Assembly: GCA_026702755.1 (NCBI GenBank)
Contig: JAPPBX010000071.1
Coordinates: 1-64,000, forward strand
DNA: 64,000 bases
DNA from: Candidatus Poribacteria bacterium
GTDB taxonomy: Bacteria; Poribacteria; WGA-4E; WGA-3G
Direction of reading: 5' to 3'
Shown here: in pieces, positions 2,000 through 9,818 of the stretch
Layout: every line of letters begins with the position of its first letter
Numbering within the stretch: position 1 is the stretch's first letter
Program-made: the position numbers and the translations under genes
Notes under the pieces: generated by a model
The model's input: the letters and a program-made list of their open reading frames with translations, nothing else
Database searches by the model: none
What the model was told of the DNA's origin: nothing

Positions 2000-2821
2000 T
2001 TAGATGTCGCTGGTGAGGATGAAACCCCAATCCCACTTCTCCATACGATGATGAACCACTGTAGCAGTGGCTGATTGGTAAATCGCTTGATGCTCCAGCA
2101 CCTCAAGTAGTGGATGATTTACCGAAACACAGAACATGTGGACATAATCCTCAAGCGGTTCGGGATGTCCCTGCTCTGCACACGGACCGAACTGAACGTG
2201 TAACAGTGGCATCGCGGAGCGAGTGCTTTGCAGAATGATGTCCTTTTTGTCTTTTAATGACAAATAAGAGATGTTCCCAAAGTATTCTCGCAAGATTGGC
2301 TCGACTTTTCGCATCCGTTTGGCATCTAAGGAAACAATTCCCAACTTTGTTGCGATGGACATCGGTGCGAGTGGAAAACGTTTTAGCATGCGTGCAACAC
2401 GGTTTGGACGTTCGCTGTCCGCATCCATAGAGATGGCGTACGCGCGAGCGGAGAGCGGATACAGTTTTGGAAAGGCATGGACGAATATTGAGACAGGGAG
2501 ATACCGTCCTTGGTAGTCAGGGTGAACTTTCAAGTCGCAAAGATACCATACCGTCTTCGGCTTTTCACGGCTTGCAGACGGTACACGGCGTAAGATCGCA
2601 GCGGCTACCGCCACCACCCGATCACCGTCAAGCGCAACATAGTAATGAAGCTGCCCCAGCCGCGTGAAGAATGCGAAGTAATCCTCACCGTGGTCAATCT
2701 CAAATCGGTCTTCACCGAGTGGATAACTCGTTCCCTTTTCTAAACCTGCGATCCGAGATTGGAAAACTTTCCACTCCTCATTATGTAATTCTCTGATATT
2801 TAAAGAACGGTTCATCCGCAT
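2000..2821 (-). CDS. GNAT-like acetyltransferase, last gene of DUF3419-HDO operon
   Basis: The 273-aa product contains a GNAT-like core: a strand ending in a basic segment (VAVAAAILRRV), then YLCDLKVHPDYQGRYLPV, which resembles motif A although the usual R/Q-x-x-G-x-G/A loop is degenerate (QGRYLPV). GNAT proteins transfer acyl groups from acyl-CoA to amines. The ATG at 2821 is chosen because GAGG lies 6 nt upstream; a TTG at 2833 and an ATG at 2815 are alternatives. It follows the diiron gene after 17 nt, so co-transcription is likely, and the context suggests it acylates a product of the two upstream enzymes. That role is inference. Confidence 0.6.
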   Translation of the reverse strand: MRMNRSLNIRELHNEEWKVFQSRIAGLEKGTSYPLGEDRFEIDHGEDYFAFFTRLGQLHYYVALDGDRVVAVAAAILRRVPSASREKPKTVWYLCDLKVHPDYQGRYLPVSIFVHAFPKLYPLSARAYAISMDADSERPNRVARMLKRFPLAPMSIATKLGIVSLDAKRMRKVEPILREYFGNISYLSLKDKKDIILQSTRSAMPLLHVQFGPCAEQGHPEPLEDYVHMFCVSVNHPLLEVLEHQAIYQSATATVVHHRMEKWDWGFILTSDI

Positions 2822-2838
2822 CCGACACCTCAAGGCTG

Positions 2839-3552
2839 TTACGATGCCCGTGTATGCGGTCCGCGCACATCGCGATAGATACGACGCTTACGTGCCTTGT
2901 AAAGCCCTTCATAAAGCGAGTTGAAGACGCACGCGCCGAGACGCAATCCCTGTTCAATGTAGTATCTATTCTCGACATCCGCATCCCATGCAGGACGAAG
3001 TACATCAAAGAAATCGTCTGCATGTTTAATATCAAGGTCTTCATGAAGATTATAATGAATCAGTTTTTCTGCAGGAATCCAGCCATGATTGACAACCTGT
3101 TCTCCGAGCCATCCAGCAATGTCTGAGAACATCCTCTCGATGATTCCCATGACACCAGCACCAATCAAGTACTCATCCATCACGCACGCACCGACCAGCA
3201 CTGTATTAAACGCTCGAACCTCGGGCCACATTGCACGTTTCGCAATATCTTCGGGTTTAATGCCAGCCAACCGGTCAAGAAAGGCGAGAAATGTTTTCTC
3301 GTGCATGAGTGATGTGTTGCCTTCACCGTGTTCCTCCCAAACATTGCGAATGACCTCTAAACGTAATTCTGACGTTGGGATCTTGGCGGCGAGTGCTGCC
3401 ATCGGGCGGTTGAAGAACACGACAGCAAAATAGAATTGGATTTGGGTTTCGACAAAATCATCGAAATCAAAAGTGTCGTCGCGCAAAGATTGAAAGTATG
3501 GATTCATCCATACATTCGTCTCTTTTAGGATGTTGTCAATGGTTATGTTCAT
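2839..3552 (-). CDS. Haem-oxygenase-like diiron oxygenase (TenA/CADD-like fold)
   Basis: The 237-aa all-helical protein shows the metal-ligand pattern of the haem-oxygenase-like diiron oxidase (HDO) superfamily: E36 in FVETQIQFYF, the E73-E74-H75 cluster, E139 in GIIERMF, and the helix with H170, D174 and H177 (HEDLDIKH). Known members (UndA, SznF, CADD types) use O2 to oxidise amines, fatty acids or amino-acid-derived substrates. It lies 6 nt downstream of a DUF3419 gene and upstream of a GNAT-like gene on the same strand. The substrate is unknown; the context suggests an amino-acid-derived product of the transferase. Confidence 0.75.
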   Translation of the reverse strand: MNITIDNILKETNVWMNPYFQSLRDDTFDFDDFVETQIQFYFAVVFFNRPMAALAAKIPTSELRLEVIRNVWEEHGEGNTSLMHEKTFLAFLDRLAGIKPEDIAKRAMWPEVRAFNTVLVGACVMDEYLIGAGVMGIIERMFSDIAGWLGEQVVNHGWIPAEKLIHYNLHEDLDIKHADDFFDVLRPAWDADVENRYYIEQGLRLGACVFNSLYEGLYKARKRRIYRDVRGPHTRAS

Positions 3553-3558
3553 CGGCTC

Positions 3559-4527
3559 CTATCTCCTTTTTCCCACATGAACGCTGGAATAAAACAGGCT
3601 GCGTTCGATTTCTTGGAATCGGACTCCCAATGCCGTATTGAACTCGAATGAATCGCCAAAGTAGGTTGAAAGATCGGTGTAATTATTGAGTTGGCGATAC
3701 AGAACGCTCGCGCCAGATTTCATCTCATTTTGAAGATAACTGATAAGGGAGACAATCTCAGGTAACGGCATCCAATCCATGATATTGGACAGAGATATCA
3801 AATCAAAACGTTGCAGTTCCGGCACTTGATCCAGTGTCTCTTCGATCATCTGAAAACGATAATCGGTAGGTGGTGCTAAGAGATAGTAGGGTAAACTCGC
3901 CGGACGTTGGAGATAGTATCCAAGAAATACATGGTGAAGAAAGTAATTATCGAACGCCGCCGCAGATGTCAACCCTCTTTCAAATAACGTCTGAAAGTAA
4001 CGCGGATAACTCCCCGCTTCAGCGTGCTGTGTAGCATCTGGACCGAACATCGCATTCAGAAGCGAGTCGCTAAAATAGAGATCAAACGCCACCGACCAAT
4101 ACTTGCTTGAGAAGAGGAGCTCCGAGACCTCGGAAAGCCGATCTTTCTCTTCAAACAATCTGCGGATTTCTACTTCGTCAGCAACCAAATCAAAGATAAA
4201 CTCCCGTAAACCCCGGAACAGGGACTCAAAGTTACCACTCTGATTGAGTCCCTTAGGATCGCTGGTCCCAATATTAAATCTCCGATGACGTGTGGCTGTA
4301 TCAACATCGCGCAGGGCATTCATTTTTTCCCGAACCCGTTCTAACTGCGCCGGATTAAAATCAACCAGAGTGATATGCAAATCGGGAAACAGTGCTTGCA
4401 GTGTCAGGGCAGTGCACCCACCGGAAGCAACTAATAGCACGTTGGAGGCTCTGGTCAGACGAATCAACTTTGCCTCAACCATTGGGTCTTCTCTGACGAC
4501 CGCAAACTGGACTTTATTATCGCGCAT
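3559..4527 (-). CDS. DUF3419 / BtaA-like 3-amino-3-carboxypropyl transferase
   Basis: The 322-aa product has a Rossmann SAM-binding core: VLLVASGGCTALTL (motif I), then ITLVDFNPAQLERV, the DxNPAQ signature of DUF3419. Near the N-terminus REDP resembles the (E/R)DP motif of BtaA. BtaA transfers the 3-amino-3-carboxypropyl group of SAM to diacylglycerol in betaine-lipid synthesis. This protein is somewhat shorter than I would expect for BtaA and no BtaB-type N-methyltransferase adjoins it; instead an HDO oxygenase and a GNAT-like gene follow. A lipid head-group product or an aminocarboxypropylated small molecule are both possible. Confidence 0.72.
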   Translation of the reverse strand: MRDNKVQFAVVREDPMVEAKLIRLTRASNVLLVASGGCTALTLQALFPDLHITLVDFNPAQLERVREKMNALRDVDTATRHRRFNIGTSDPKGLNQSGNFESLFRGLREFIFDLVADEVEIRRLFEEKDRLSEVSELLFSSKYWSVAFDLYFSDSLLNAMFGPDATQHAEAGSYPRYFQTLFERGLTSAAAFDNYFLHHVFLGYYLQRPASLPYYLLAPPTDYRFQMIEETLDQVPELQRFDLISLSNIMDWMPLPEIVSLISYLQNEMKSGASVLYRQLNNYTDLSTYFGDSFEFNTALGVRFQEIERSLFYSSVHVGKRR

Positions 4528-4610: not shown

Positions 4611-5129
4611 TCATAAGACTTCATCAAGGTACACTTCAATTTTCTCTAATGTTTTTTTCCCGATGCCTTTGAAACCTTTTAATTTCCCTTCATCAATTGC
4701 TGCTCGGAGCGAGGCGAGGCTATCCACACCGACTTCTTCATAGAGTCGCTTAATCGTTTTGGCACCCAATCCGGGTATCGGTACAAGCTCCACAACCGTT
4801 CGCGGTGTATCACCGGCGAATTCTTCCAGTTTTGCGCTCGTGCCAGTGTTCAGAAATTCCTCAACGATTTTCGCCACGACTTCGCCAGCCGCTGGAATCT
4901 CCTCTATTAATCGTCCTTGGGCGATGAGATCCGACATCGGTTCGGGAAAGCGAGAGATATAATTCGACAACCATGGATATCGCGAGGCGTGCTCTTCTGG
5001 ATAGTCGGCGATAATCAAAAACGTATGAAGTTCTAAGAACTTTAGCGCAATTTCATCATTTTGATGCCAGCGCGTTCGCCCTTTTGCATCAATGTAAGAT
5101 CCTTCTTCTAAGTCTTTTTCATCGCTCAT
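4611..5129 (-). CDS. Helix-hairpin-helix protein related to the PolX N-terminal region
   Basis: The 172-aa protein resembles the N-terminal part of family X DNA polymerases without the nucleotidyltransferase domain. Residues 25-95 match the helical 8-kDa-like region, and two HhH hairpins follow: VPIPGLGAKTIKRLY and FKGIGKKTLEKIEVYL, each with the G-(h)-G-x-K/T backbone-binding loop. Such modules bind DNA without sequence specificity. The start codon overlaps the end of the upstream WD40 gene by 11 nt, implying translational coupling, which is odd because the WD40 product is secreted. A DNA-binding role is likely; a catalytic role is not supported. Confidence 0.75.
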   Translation of the reverse strand: MSDEKDLEEGSYIDAKGRTRWHQNDEIALKFLELHTFLIIADYPEEHASRYPWLSNYISRFPEPMSDLIAQGRLIEEIPAAGEVVAKIVEEFLNTGTSAKLEEFAGDTPRTVVELVPIPGLGAKTIKRLYEEVGVDSLASLRAAIDEGKLKGFKGIGKKTLEKIEVYLDEVL

Positions 5130-6219: not shown

Positions 6220-7968
6220 CTATTCATAGAGGTCCGTGGCGGTTTCGCCCCTGGCGAAACGGTGTGCAGTCTGGACAGCGGAATCATTTCCAGCGTTTCT
6301 GCGAATATCCGTTGCCCATCGTGCCAACCCAACTATCAGCTGATTTCTGGCAGGATGCGTCTCGCACGTTTTCCATTCCTCAGATACGATGTAAATTGAG
6401 CTGAGGAGGTCCCCGCCGTTATCATCCTTGAGGATACATAATCCCATTTCAGTCATTAACCGCTCTGCGGAGCACCCAGCATTGAGATACTCACGGGTAC
6501 GCCGTCCAATTTCTTGGATGCGGACGGATTCAATACCATCTAAAATTTCGGCAATCGCCGTGTCTTCATCAAGAGAAGCAGACGTTGTAGATGTTCTTGC
6601 TTCTGCAATCGGTTGATGACGGATGTTAAGCCATCGGTTGTTGAAAAACCGCCATGCGGCGTGGTAGAGTGCCTTCGCAGCGACTTTGGTTCCGCCGAAG
6701 CGAAGCACCTTCCTCACCGTCGATGAGATTTCCATCTCCTCCTGCAGATCCCACCAACCGGGACTCATGTTCACAGGTGTACGTGCCATCCTATCCGCTG
6801 CTGTCATGACCATAGTCGTAGCCAACGTGTTAATAGGGACACCCGCGGTGAGCATTTCTGTTACGGCATCAAAAACTTCGTCGAGATCACCACTCACGAG
6901 GGCTGCTGAAAACTTGTCTTCGTCGTAATCAACAGCTGCTGCGGTTGATTTTTCTTGCGGTAGTTCATCAAAGATATGATCAATCTCTTTCAGCTTTTGA
7001 ATGGCTTCACGGTGAAGTTCTCCGGGTCTACCGCGTCCTTGTCCAAGAATCTTTGCGCCGAGACTGCAAACTAACTCGCCTGTTAGTTCCCATCCAAACT
7101 GTTCTTGCAATTCAGCCAAGTGTACGAGATTAATGAGATTGTTGGAATGATTGAGGAAGAAGGATTCGACTGCACACTCAAAGAAGAGCGGAATGATTTT
7201 CTCATCATGTCCGCCTAACTGTCTGGCGGTGATAAGACATTTTTCAATACCTTCCCACTCTTTATCGGTGGTGAACACCCGAATCCAGTCTTCGAGTTTC
7301 TGCCAGTCAATCGGTGGTGGGAGCGGTCGGCGATCGGGTCGATCCCCAAGTCTACCCGATGCTCCATCGGCAGCCATCATCAATGGGATGAGCCGGTCCT
7401 CAGGTTCGTACAACCGAGCGACCTTTACCCCGTTCATCATCATTGCCAATTTTCTGCCACCCTCGAACGCCTCTCTATCTGTAGAGATATGTCGTCCCAT
7501 GTGCCTCACCATCAGATTCAACGTTTCCTCTTCCGAAACGCCCCTCGCTAACATAATGGCGATAGCTTTAGAAAGCGTCCAATTGTCGGTGGAGAGTAAC
7601 CCCTCTTTCAGCAGAAGAAAATGGGCATCGTCCCGCTTCTTTCCACCACTGGCGACATCTACATAGATATCACCGTTGCGAACTTCAACAGGAAACGTGG
7701 CGAGGTCATCACAACCACCCGTAAAGCATCCACCACCTTCCATGTCGTAACTCCAACCGTGCCAATCGCAGGATAAAACACCCTTTCTGACACGTCCTCG
7801 AACGAGTGGGTACCCCATGTGCGGGCACTGGTTATCCGTGGCGTAGACGGCACCTTCATGCTGAAAGAGGGCAATGCTATGTCCTTCAACTCTGACTGCC
7901 CTCGGTTTTCCCTCTGCTACTTCACTGAGGGCAGCAACTTTGACAAAATTGGTATTCTCGTTTAACAT
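6220..7968 (-). CDS. Rieske [2Fe-2S] protein with long helical C-terminal domain (copy 1)
   Basis: The 582-aa product has a Rieske fold at residues 8-110 with the complete cluster ligands C48-x-H50 and C67-x-x-H70 (QCPHMGYPL and CDWHGW). The domain resembles ferredoxin components of dioxygenases. The remaining 470 residues are predominantly helical, with recurrent segments such as FFECAVESFFL and TTMVMTAADRMA that also occur in the paralogue next door; I do not recognise this domain. No membrane helix or signal peptide is visible, so it is probably a cytoplasmic redox protein. It is separated by 45 nt from the upstream paralogue and is likely in the same transcript. Confidence 0.8.
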   Translation of the reverse strand: MLNENTNFVKVAALSEVAEGKPRAVRVEGHSIALFQHEGAVYATDNQCPHMGYPLVRGRVRKGVLSCDWHGWSYDMEGGGCFTGGCDDLATFPVEVRNGDIYVDVASGGKKRDDAHFLLLKEGLLSTDNWTLSKAIAIMLARGVSEEETLNLMVRHMGRHISTDREAFEGGRKLAMMMNGVKVARLYEPEDRLIPLMMAADGASGRLGDRPDRRPLPPPIDWQKLEDWIRVFTTDKEWEGIEKCLITARQLGGHDEKIIPLFFECAVESFFLNHSNNLINLVHLAELQEQFGWELTGELVCSLGAKILGQGRGRPGELHREAIQKLKEIDHIFDELPQEKSTAAAVDYDEDKFSAALVSGDLDEVFDAVTEMLTAGVPINTLATTMVMTAADRMARTPVNMSPGWWDLQEEMEISSTVRKVLRFGGTKVAAKALYHAAWRFFNNRWLNIRHQPIAEARTSTTSASLDEDTAIAEILDGIESVRIQEIGRRTREYLNAGCSAERLMTEMGLCILKDDNGGDLLSSIYIVSEEWKTCETHPARNQLIVGLARWATDIRRNAGNDSAVQTAHRFARGETATDLYE

Positions 7969-8013
7969 TATCTACTTCTCCTCTATGGCGTGACTTAGTT
8001 TGTTGGGTAGAGC

Positions 8014-9750
8014 TTACTCCTCAAAAACCTCAATCGTTGTCCTACCTTCGGCGAAACGCATCGCGGTGGTCGCGGCAGATTTGTTGTCCGTGTTCGATCG
8101 GATATCTGTGACGTAGCGAGCCAATCCGATCAACAGCTGAGGTTGTGCGGGATGCCCTTCCGCATGCTTCCACTCTTCAAACACCGTACGCAGTGTTGGT
8201 AGGACTTCACTCCCCGTATCATCCCAAAGCACCGTATGCCCTATCTCTTCGAGCAATCGTTCAGCAGAATAGCCAGCATTTAGATAGCCAAGCACTTGCG
8301 GTCCCACATTTTGGACATCAAGTGTCTCGATTGTATCAATAATGTGCTTGATACCTTCGGCTTCATTCGGAGCCTCCAATTTCTCTTGACTCAAGGGTTG
8401 ACTGAGTGCTCGTGCTGGAATGTTTATCCAGCGATCCGCGAAGATTTGCCACGCAACGTGGAAAATTCCTTTCGCTGCGACTTCATTGCCACCCACTCGT
8501 TGTGCACTCCGCAACGATGCGGCAAGGTTGAGTTCTGTTGTTAAGTTCTCCCAACCCGCGTCTACATTCACCGGTGTGTTCGCCATTCTATCTGCAGCGA
8601 GAAGGACAAGCGAGGTAATAAGCCTTTCTAACTTAACACCATCAGTTAAGACTGCTTGTACTGCCTCAAACGACCGCTGGAGATTAACACTCGTGAGTGC
8701 CGCAACGAAAGCGTCTTCATCAAATTCAGAAGTTTGCTCTAAGGTAGCACCTTCAATGGTTGGAAGGATTTGCTGCATGAGTTGAATTGCGTCTCTACGA
8801 TACCGTTCAGGATCATCTGGACGATGTCCGACGAGTTCCGCTCCGAGATAGAAGAACAACTTCGAGGCATGTTCCCACCCAAATTCATCAATCACCTCTG
8901 AAAGATAACTAACATAGAGCGGAATATGGGGTGCGTCAATAAAATGCGGTTCGACTGCACACTCAAAGAGTAGCGGACACAATTTATCTGCGTCCCCCTT
9001 GTTATATGCAGTGAACAAGCATCGCTCAATTCGCCCCGACTGTCCTTCATAAGAGAAATTACGAACCCATCGACTTATCTTTTCCCAAGCGACCGGCTCT
9101 GGCAACGGCACAACTTCAAGTCGTTCCGATGCGGGACCTGCAGCCGAACAAGCGGCAGTTGTAACAGCGATGAGTCTATCAGCGTCCGTATATCTACGTC
9201 CGACTTTGAGTCCGTTGATGAGTCGGGAGACATCGCCGCCGCCTTCTGATCCGTGGGAACTGGCGATGTGACGGCTGACGTGTTCCAGGATTGAACCCAT
9301 CACCTCTTCTTCTGGTACGCCACCTTTTAGCAATAGCGAAATCGCTTTGGACATCGTCCATCGGTCTTCGCTCAAAAGCCCCTCTCGGAGCAATTGTTTA
9401 TGTTCTTCGGCGCGTCGGTATGTCAAATCTCCGGGTTCTATCCAAATTTCATTGCCTCGGAGGTCAACCGGAAAAGTGCGTAGATCGTCGCATTCAACAT
9501 GGAAGCAGCCACCGCCTTCCAAATCGAAACTGCGGCGGTGCCAATCACATGTTAGGATGCCGTTGCGAACGGTTCCCCGTGTGAGTGGATAGCCCATGTG
9601 TGGACACTGGTTATCCGTCGCATAAATCTTTCCATCAACATTGAAGAGGGCAATGCTGCGACCCTCTGCCATCTGAATCGCTTTCGGTTGCCCTTCAGGA
9701 ACTTCACTTAACTCGGCGACTTTCACCCAGTTTTGTGTTTGATGCTCCAT
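8014..9750 (-). CDS. Rieske [2Fe-2S] protein with long helical C-terminal domain (copy 2)
   Basis: This 578-aa paralogue shares the architecture of its downstream neighbour: Rieske ligands C49, H51, C68 and H71, then a long helical region with matching segments (LFECAVEPHFI, TSLVLLAADRMANTPVN). The ATG at 9750 is preferred over an upstream in-frame start at 9798 because GGAGGA lies 10 nt before it. CDWHGW of copy 1 is CDWHRR here. Divergence between the copies is substantial, so the duplication is old, and the pair may form a heteromer or act on different substrates. A good promoter lies upstream at 9819-9847. Confidence 0.8.
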   Translation of the reverse strand: MEHQTQNWVKVAELSEVPEGQPKAIQMAEGRSIALFNVDGKIYATDNQCPHMGYPLTRGTVRNGILTCDWHRRSFDLEGGGCFHVECDDLRTFPVDLRGNEIWIEPGDLTYRRAEEHKQLLREGLLSEDRWTMSKAISLLLKGGVPEEEVMGSILEHVSRHIASSHGSEGGGDVSRLINGLKVGRRYTDADRLIAVTTAACSAAGPASERLEVVPLPEPVAWEKISRWVRNFSYEGQSGRIERCLFTAYNKGDADKLCPLLFECAVEPHFIDAPHIPLYVSYLSEVIDEFGWEHASKLFFYLGAELVGHRPDDPERYRRDAIQLMQQILPTIEGATLEQTSEFDEDAFVAALTSVNLQRSFEAVQAVLTDGVKLERLITSLVLLAADRMANTPVNVDAGWENLTTELNLAASLRSAQRVGGNEVAAKGIFHVAWQIFADRWINIPARALSQPLSQEKLEAPNEAEGIKHIIDTIETLDVQNVGPQVLGYLNAGYSAERLLEEIGHTVLWDDTGSEVLPTLRTVFEEWKHAEGHPAQPQLLIGLARYVTDIRSNTDNKSAATTAMRFAEGRTTIEVFEE

Positions 9751-9818
9751 GGTTTTACGTTCCTCCAAATTGTGTTTCGTATATCCTAATTTCAACAAAA
9801 ACTTAACGACTATAAAGC

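Follow-up and report, generated by a model that had tools for sequence, protein, structure and literature searches.

Three adjacent genes of an uncultured sponge bacterium, Candidatus Poribacteria (genome 5.84 Mb), are inherited and lost as a unit and have counterparts, identically ordered, on a Mycobacterium plasmid; on both counts they resemble a small-molecule pathway that has yet to be described. We see an even chance that this cassette is a dedicated three-gene pathway to an oxidised, N-acylated, SAM-derived amino-acid metabolite.

The cassette lies on the minus strand of the window, by which we mean the whole 64,000-nucleotide stretch of contig C71 that was analysed. Its first gene (3559..4527) encodes a 322-aa DUF3419 protein (PF11899, E 5.7e-24; 85.4 bits against a curated cut-off of 28.2), its second (2839..3552) a 237-aa haem-oxygenase-like diiron oxidase/oxygenase (HDO; PF14518, E 3.5e-18) and its third (2000..2821) a 273-aa acyltransferase-like protein of GNAT fold whose C-terminal half is degenerate (PF00583, Acetyltransf_1, 21.6 bits with the cut-off at 20.7, a weak match that still passes). 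These profile matches uphold the three families named in the initial annotation (BtaA-family DUF3419, HDO and GNAT), which had also described gaps of 6 and about 17 nt between the genes; read from the sequence, the gaps are exactly 6 nt (3553..3558) and 17 nt (2822..2838, from the HDO stop to the GNAT ATG), all on one strand. The HDO ATG is preceded by an AAGGAG-type ribosome-binding site, and this Shine-Dalgarno sequence overlaps the 3' end of the DUF3419 gene. For the GNAT gene, the ATG at 2821, with a GAGGTG ribosome site upstream of it, is a more likely start than the TTG at 2833 that the ORF finder proposed. The tight spacing and the identical order in every intact copy found uphold the proposed three-gene operon, and a chance arrangement is rejected because this order is kept in all intact copies (22 Poribacteria genomes) as well as in Mycobacterium riyadhense.

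A search of 73 genomes of the order with the DUF3419 protein gave near-full-length copies in 22, plus a 34-residue remnant in G068, with HDO and GNAT following in the same order in all those copies and the flanks varying. Phylum-wide searches (85 genomes each, with PF11899, an HDO alignment and a GNAT alignment) all led to these 22 genomes; the GNAT alignment alone picked up more, namely remnants in G068 and G060, and no intact subset of one or two genes was found among the 85. The initial annotation had staked its proposal on joint conservation in relatives; what we find is all-or-none presence in 22 of 85 genomes and recurrence outside the phylum, so that co-occurrence, shared loss and gene order across phyla support a functional linkage of the three genes.

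The losses themselves have left traces. Three deletion scars adjoin a helix-hairpin-helix gene (4611..5129, minus strand) that flanks the cassette, lies outside the pathway and marks the position where the cassette commonly sits in the genus; it is present in 38 of 38 genomes of that genus, cassette or not. At these scars HDO was lost together with most of DUF3419 and GNAT: G068 retains the first 32 DUF3419 codons fused to GNAT pieces, G060 about 67 nt of the cassette start joined to about 66 nt of its end, and G038 two short GNAT pieces. Amino-acid identity in the DUF3419 search is 85-95 % within the genus, against 76-78 % for genus g4 and 68-71 % for family f4. Since identity drops with taxonomic distance, the pattern fits vertical descent with repeated loss; some movement must nevertheless have occurred, because several copies sit elsewhere in the genome. 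(G045 carries two copies with the same flanking gene order, which were counted once and may be assembly redundancy.) Purifying selection on all three genes is clear, with pN/pS values of 0.13-0.26 for DUF3419, 0.12-0.28 for GNAT and 0.05-0.19 for HDO, the most conserved of the three and the one under the strongest constraint. Furthermore, the three proteins show correlated pairwise distances within Poribacteria (r 0.90-0.94).

Other neighbours were considered as members of the cassette and rejected. The distribution of a fatty-acid-desaturase/GntB-like gene (155-1306), a candidate fourth member, does not track the cassette, and the helix-hairpin-helix gene and a MORN-like neighbour both persist in genomes without it. 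Separately, window positions 6220-9798 hold adjacent genes for proteins of 582 and 594 aa. In both, an N-terminal Rieske domain precedes a long C-terminal region that has no convincing Pfam match; the first protein has matches close to the cassette in several relatives, in some cases as a pair.

Our view beyond the phylum is one of plasmids, among which M. riyadhense was the only genome outside Poribacteria found to hold a complete cassette; a scan of an 84,980-species genome collection returned close relatives. On the M. riyadhense plasmid the genes stand in cassette order, with BLAST identities of 25 % for DUF3419 (E 2e-17), 35 % for HDO (E 5e-44) and 34 % over 87 residues for GNAT (E 9e-11); the true start or integrity of this DUF3419 is uncertain because its frame begins shortly before the SAM motif. 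About 106 nt downstream, on the same strand, lies an RND-family (MmpL-type) transporter gene. Viral contigs scanned with HDO and DUF3419 queries gave no matches, and phages gave none for HDO.

The DUF3419 protein resembles BtaA of the BtaA/BtaB betaine-lipid (DGTS) pathway in family and in its SAM-site motifs, SGGC(T/N) and D-x-N(P) (D56/N58). SGGC and D-x-N are invariant in the alignment, so the loss of SAM-binding residues that had been raised as a possible objection is not seen. On the other hand, it is without BtaA's N-terminal extension and without about 40 profile positions (about 86-124) immediately C-terminal to the SAM motif, and its identity to genuine BtaA (Shinella, Sinorhizobium) is 19-21 %. 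In the controls, the btaA genes of Shinella, Sinorhizobium and Rhizobium leguminosarum, a class I methyltransferase (BtaB) is adjacent or overlapping downstream, whereas the cassette has HDO and GNAT in its place. No BtaB-like methyltransferase was found near the cassette and the best whole-genome match reached only 22 bits (E 1.7e-4), in agreement with the absence of BtaB reported in the initial annotation. On sequence grounds, then, the cassette protein is not BtaA, being without BtaB and without about 40 positions of the family; we predict that it is a SAM-dependent 3-amino-3-carboxypropyl (or related) transferase. To our knowledge, no activity has been described for DUF3419 proteins beyond BtaA-type enzymes. 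The chemistry is presumed to be like that of MccD, NAS and CntL (the microcin C/nicotianamine type), which take aminocarboxypropyl from SAM and release methylthioadenosine, although BtaA does not appear homologous to NAS, MtNAS, CntL or MccD (PMC10491745). An AlphaFold2 model of the DUF3419 protein was unusable (pLDDT 42).

As for the oxidase, it matches the profile of the HDO superfamily (HrmI, CADD/pABA synthase, BesC, MboA, UndA) and shares all six of its 3H/3C ligands. All 21 HDO sequences compared share residues E74, H84, E139, H170, D174 and H177, which align to CADD and HrmI and fall on what we take to be the six diiron ligands of CADD. The best solved relatives in alignments are HrmI, the CADD pABA synthase, another 4-aminobenzoate synthase and BesC, and the step from E74 to H84 is ten residues (E-x9-H), as in the N-oxygenase HrmI, compared with seven in CADD and BesC. 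Sequence alignment alone revealed no obvious invariant extra Glu/Asp for an SznF-type fourth carboxylate (3H/4C). Because the metal-site spacing matches HrmI, N-oxygenation would be a slight favourite over other oxidations; the spacing is a hint, not proof, since HDOs with identical ligands diverge in function (PMC13108848). The substrates of characterised HDOs are mostly amino acids or fatty acids, and wherever a substrate-bound structure has been solved, Fe1 is what the substrate binds (PMC13108848), so an aminocarboxypropyl product would suit such an enzyme. The cassette enzyme is without a close characterised relative, and its neighbour genes match none of the HDO clusters found in open-access descriptions.

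The third protein is conserved with its M. riyadhense counterpart (21.5 bits against PF00583) in the motif Y-[LV]-[CG]-D-[LV]-K, and it has the conserved Y-L-C-D-L-K strand. The usual GNAT pyrophosphate loop is R/Q-x-x-G-x-G/A; here it is non-canonical, RGRYLP in most Poribacteria and RRGLTP in Mycobacterium, and acyl transfer by this protein is therefore uncertain. Foldseek searches with a low-confidence model (pLDDT 58) gave only general GNAT matches, with a best E of 0.003 and no match at E <= 0.001.

Related groupings occur elsewhere. The plasmid NZ_CP054144.1 of Deefgea piscis (L145:6583-9481) carries in a row a weak FeeM-like gene (E 0.004, below cut-off), HDO, DUF3419 and an AdoMet decarboxylase (SpeD). 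Like the cassette, this cluster combines adjacent HDO and DUF3419 genes with an acyltransferase-like gene, but its HDO is of another subtype (UndA/MboA-like spacing), the order is reversed and the decarboxylase is additional; the pair is an independent arrangement, and the cluster possibly uses decarboxylated SAM. We found no description of it in the open-access literature. Additionally, a frameshifted cluster in another Poribacterium (G014:C403, L081:5882-11434) consists of a GNAT gene related to that of Mycobacterium (E 8e-14), a PrpD-like gene, an aldehyde-deformylating-oxygenase-like (ADO-like) diiron gene (PF11266, 6.7e-12), an acyl-ACP-reductase-like (AAR-like) gene and DUF3419, the PrpD-like and AAR-like labels being read from translations with no profile match over the cut-off. 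Streptomyces plasmids (L078:9259-10645, L079:7259-8657, L080:7259-8657) pair an EF-hand gene with an HDO that belongs to the same subfamily as the cassette enzyme and is about 60 % identical to that of Mycobacterium, with no DUF3419 within the 8-10 kb inspected; the cassette type of HDO may therefore work without DUF3419.

In the pathway we propose, the DUF3419 protein would transfer aminocarboxypropyl from SAM as the first step, HDO would oxidise the resulting amino acid with O2, and the GNAT-fold protein would acylate an amine of the intermediate or product. HDO would act before GNAT if the amine must bind iron, and GNAT could precede if the carboxylate does so. The end product would be small and probably exported; export is suggested by the transporter gene adjoining the Mycobacterium copy, and an MmpL-type exporter would fit a possibly amphiphilic product. 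The pathway reading is favoured by the all-or-none presence in 22 of 85 genomes with scars in G068, G060 and G038, by the matching gene order in M. riyadhense with the transporter gene behind it, by the intact HDO 3H/3C site and the DUF3419 SAM-site motifs, by other clusters in which DUF3419 again accompanies a diiron enzyme and an acyltransferase-like gene (Deefgea, G014:C403), and by pN/pS values of 0.05-0.28 in all three genes together with the distance correlation.

Several rival explanations draw on the same observations. The DUF3419 protein could make a diacylglyceryl-homoserine-type membrane lipid like BtaA, with HDO and GNAT altering its head group where BtaB would otherwise methylate it. 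The shared family speaks for this, as does the adjoining Mycobacterium transporter, MmpL-type transporters often handling lipids; yet genuine BtaA has BtaB beside it, identity to BtaA is low and the N-terminal extension is missing. With the deletion of about 40 positions and the missing BtaB, the betaine-lipid version appears weakened, and we regard it as unlikely. DUF3419 might instead be an ordinary methyltransferase or a non-catalytic scaffold, leaving HDO to act on an unrelated substrate, e.g., a fatty or amino acid. Weak methyltransferase-profile matches and the occurrence of related HDOs without DUF3419 point this way, but the closest curated family is DUF3419 and not a methyltransferase family, and the strict three-way co-occurrence with shared loss makes this quite improbable.

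A further variant retains the SAM chemistry and dispenses with the acceptor: DUF3419 would cyclise SAM (to azetidine-2-carboxylate, homoserine lactone or similar), HDO would oxidise the ring amino acid and GNAT would acylate it. Such cyclisation is known for other methyltransferase-fold enzymes (PMC10491745), and in Deefgea the AdoMet decarboxylase next to DUF3419 suggests that the SAM-derived substrate can vary; BtaA itself, however, is a transferase, and we hold this variant to be distinctly improbable. Finally, a mobile or defence island could explain the adjacency without any shared pathway, as the patchy distribution, the several genomic positions in the genus and the plasmid location in Mycobacterium and Deefgea might suggest. 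Order and tight spacing kept over phylum-level divergence, correlated evolution of the three proteins and the lack of other shared cargo leave this very unlikely.

Beyond the cassette itself, we tentatively suggest a natural-product class that crosses phyla, in which DUF3419 and a diiron oxidase would together produce a SAM-derived amino-acid metabolite that is oxidised and N-acylated, in independently assembled versions of the pathway, with HDO in Poribacteria, Mycobacterium and Deefgea and a ferritin-like ADO relative in G014. The open-access literature searched held no report of DUF3419 with HDO, aminocarboxypropyl, PrpD or aldehyde decarbonylase. DUF3419 is still labelled as of 'unknown function' despite containing BtaA, and strict co-occurrence with recurrence in an unrelated phylum offers a direct route to a second DUF3419 chemistry, as well as a route to a new class of HDO substrates. 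With so few and such short genes, the cassette could realistically be reconstituted in E. coli even though its hosts are uncultured.

The plasmid view also brought up clusters of other kinds. DUF3419 without BtaB occurs in biosynthesis-like clusters, amid UbiA, PEP synthase and AMP-binding genes in Roseinatronobacter (L087:523-8507), and amid ketoacyl synthase III, MBL-fold and CoF synthetase genes on Rhizobium pMK-2 (L111:1832-8170). A plasmid of the Pseudomonas syringae group (L147:529-9171) carries an HDO together with a LuxR regulator, anthranilate synthase, a phenylacetate-CoA-ligase-like protein, an acetyltransferase, a flavodoxin and an EamA transporter.
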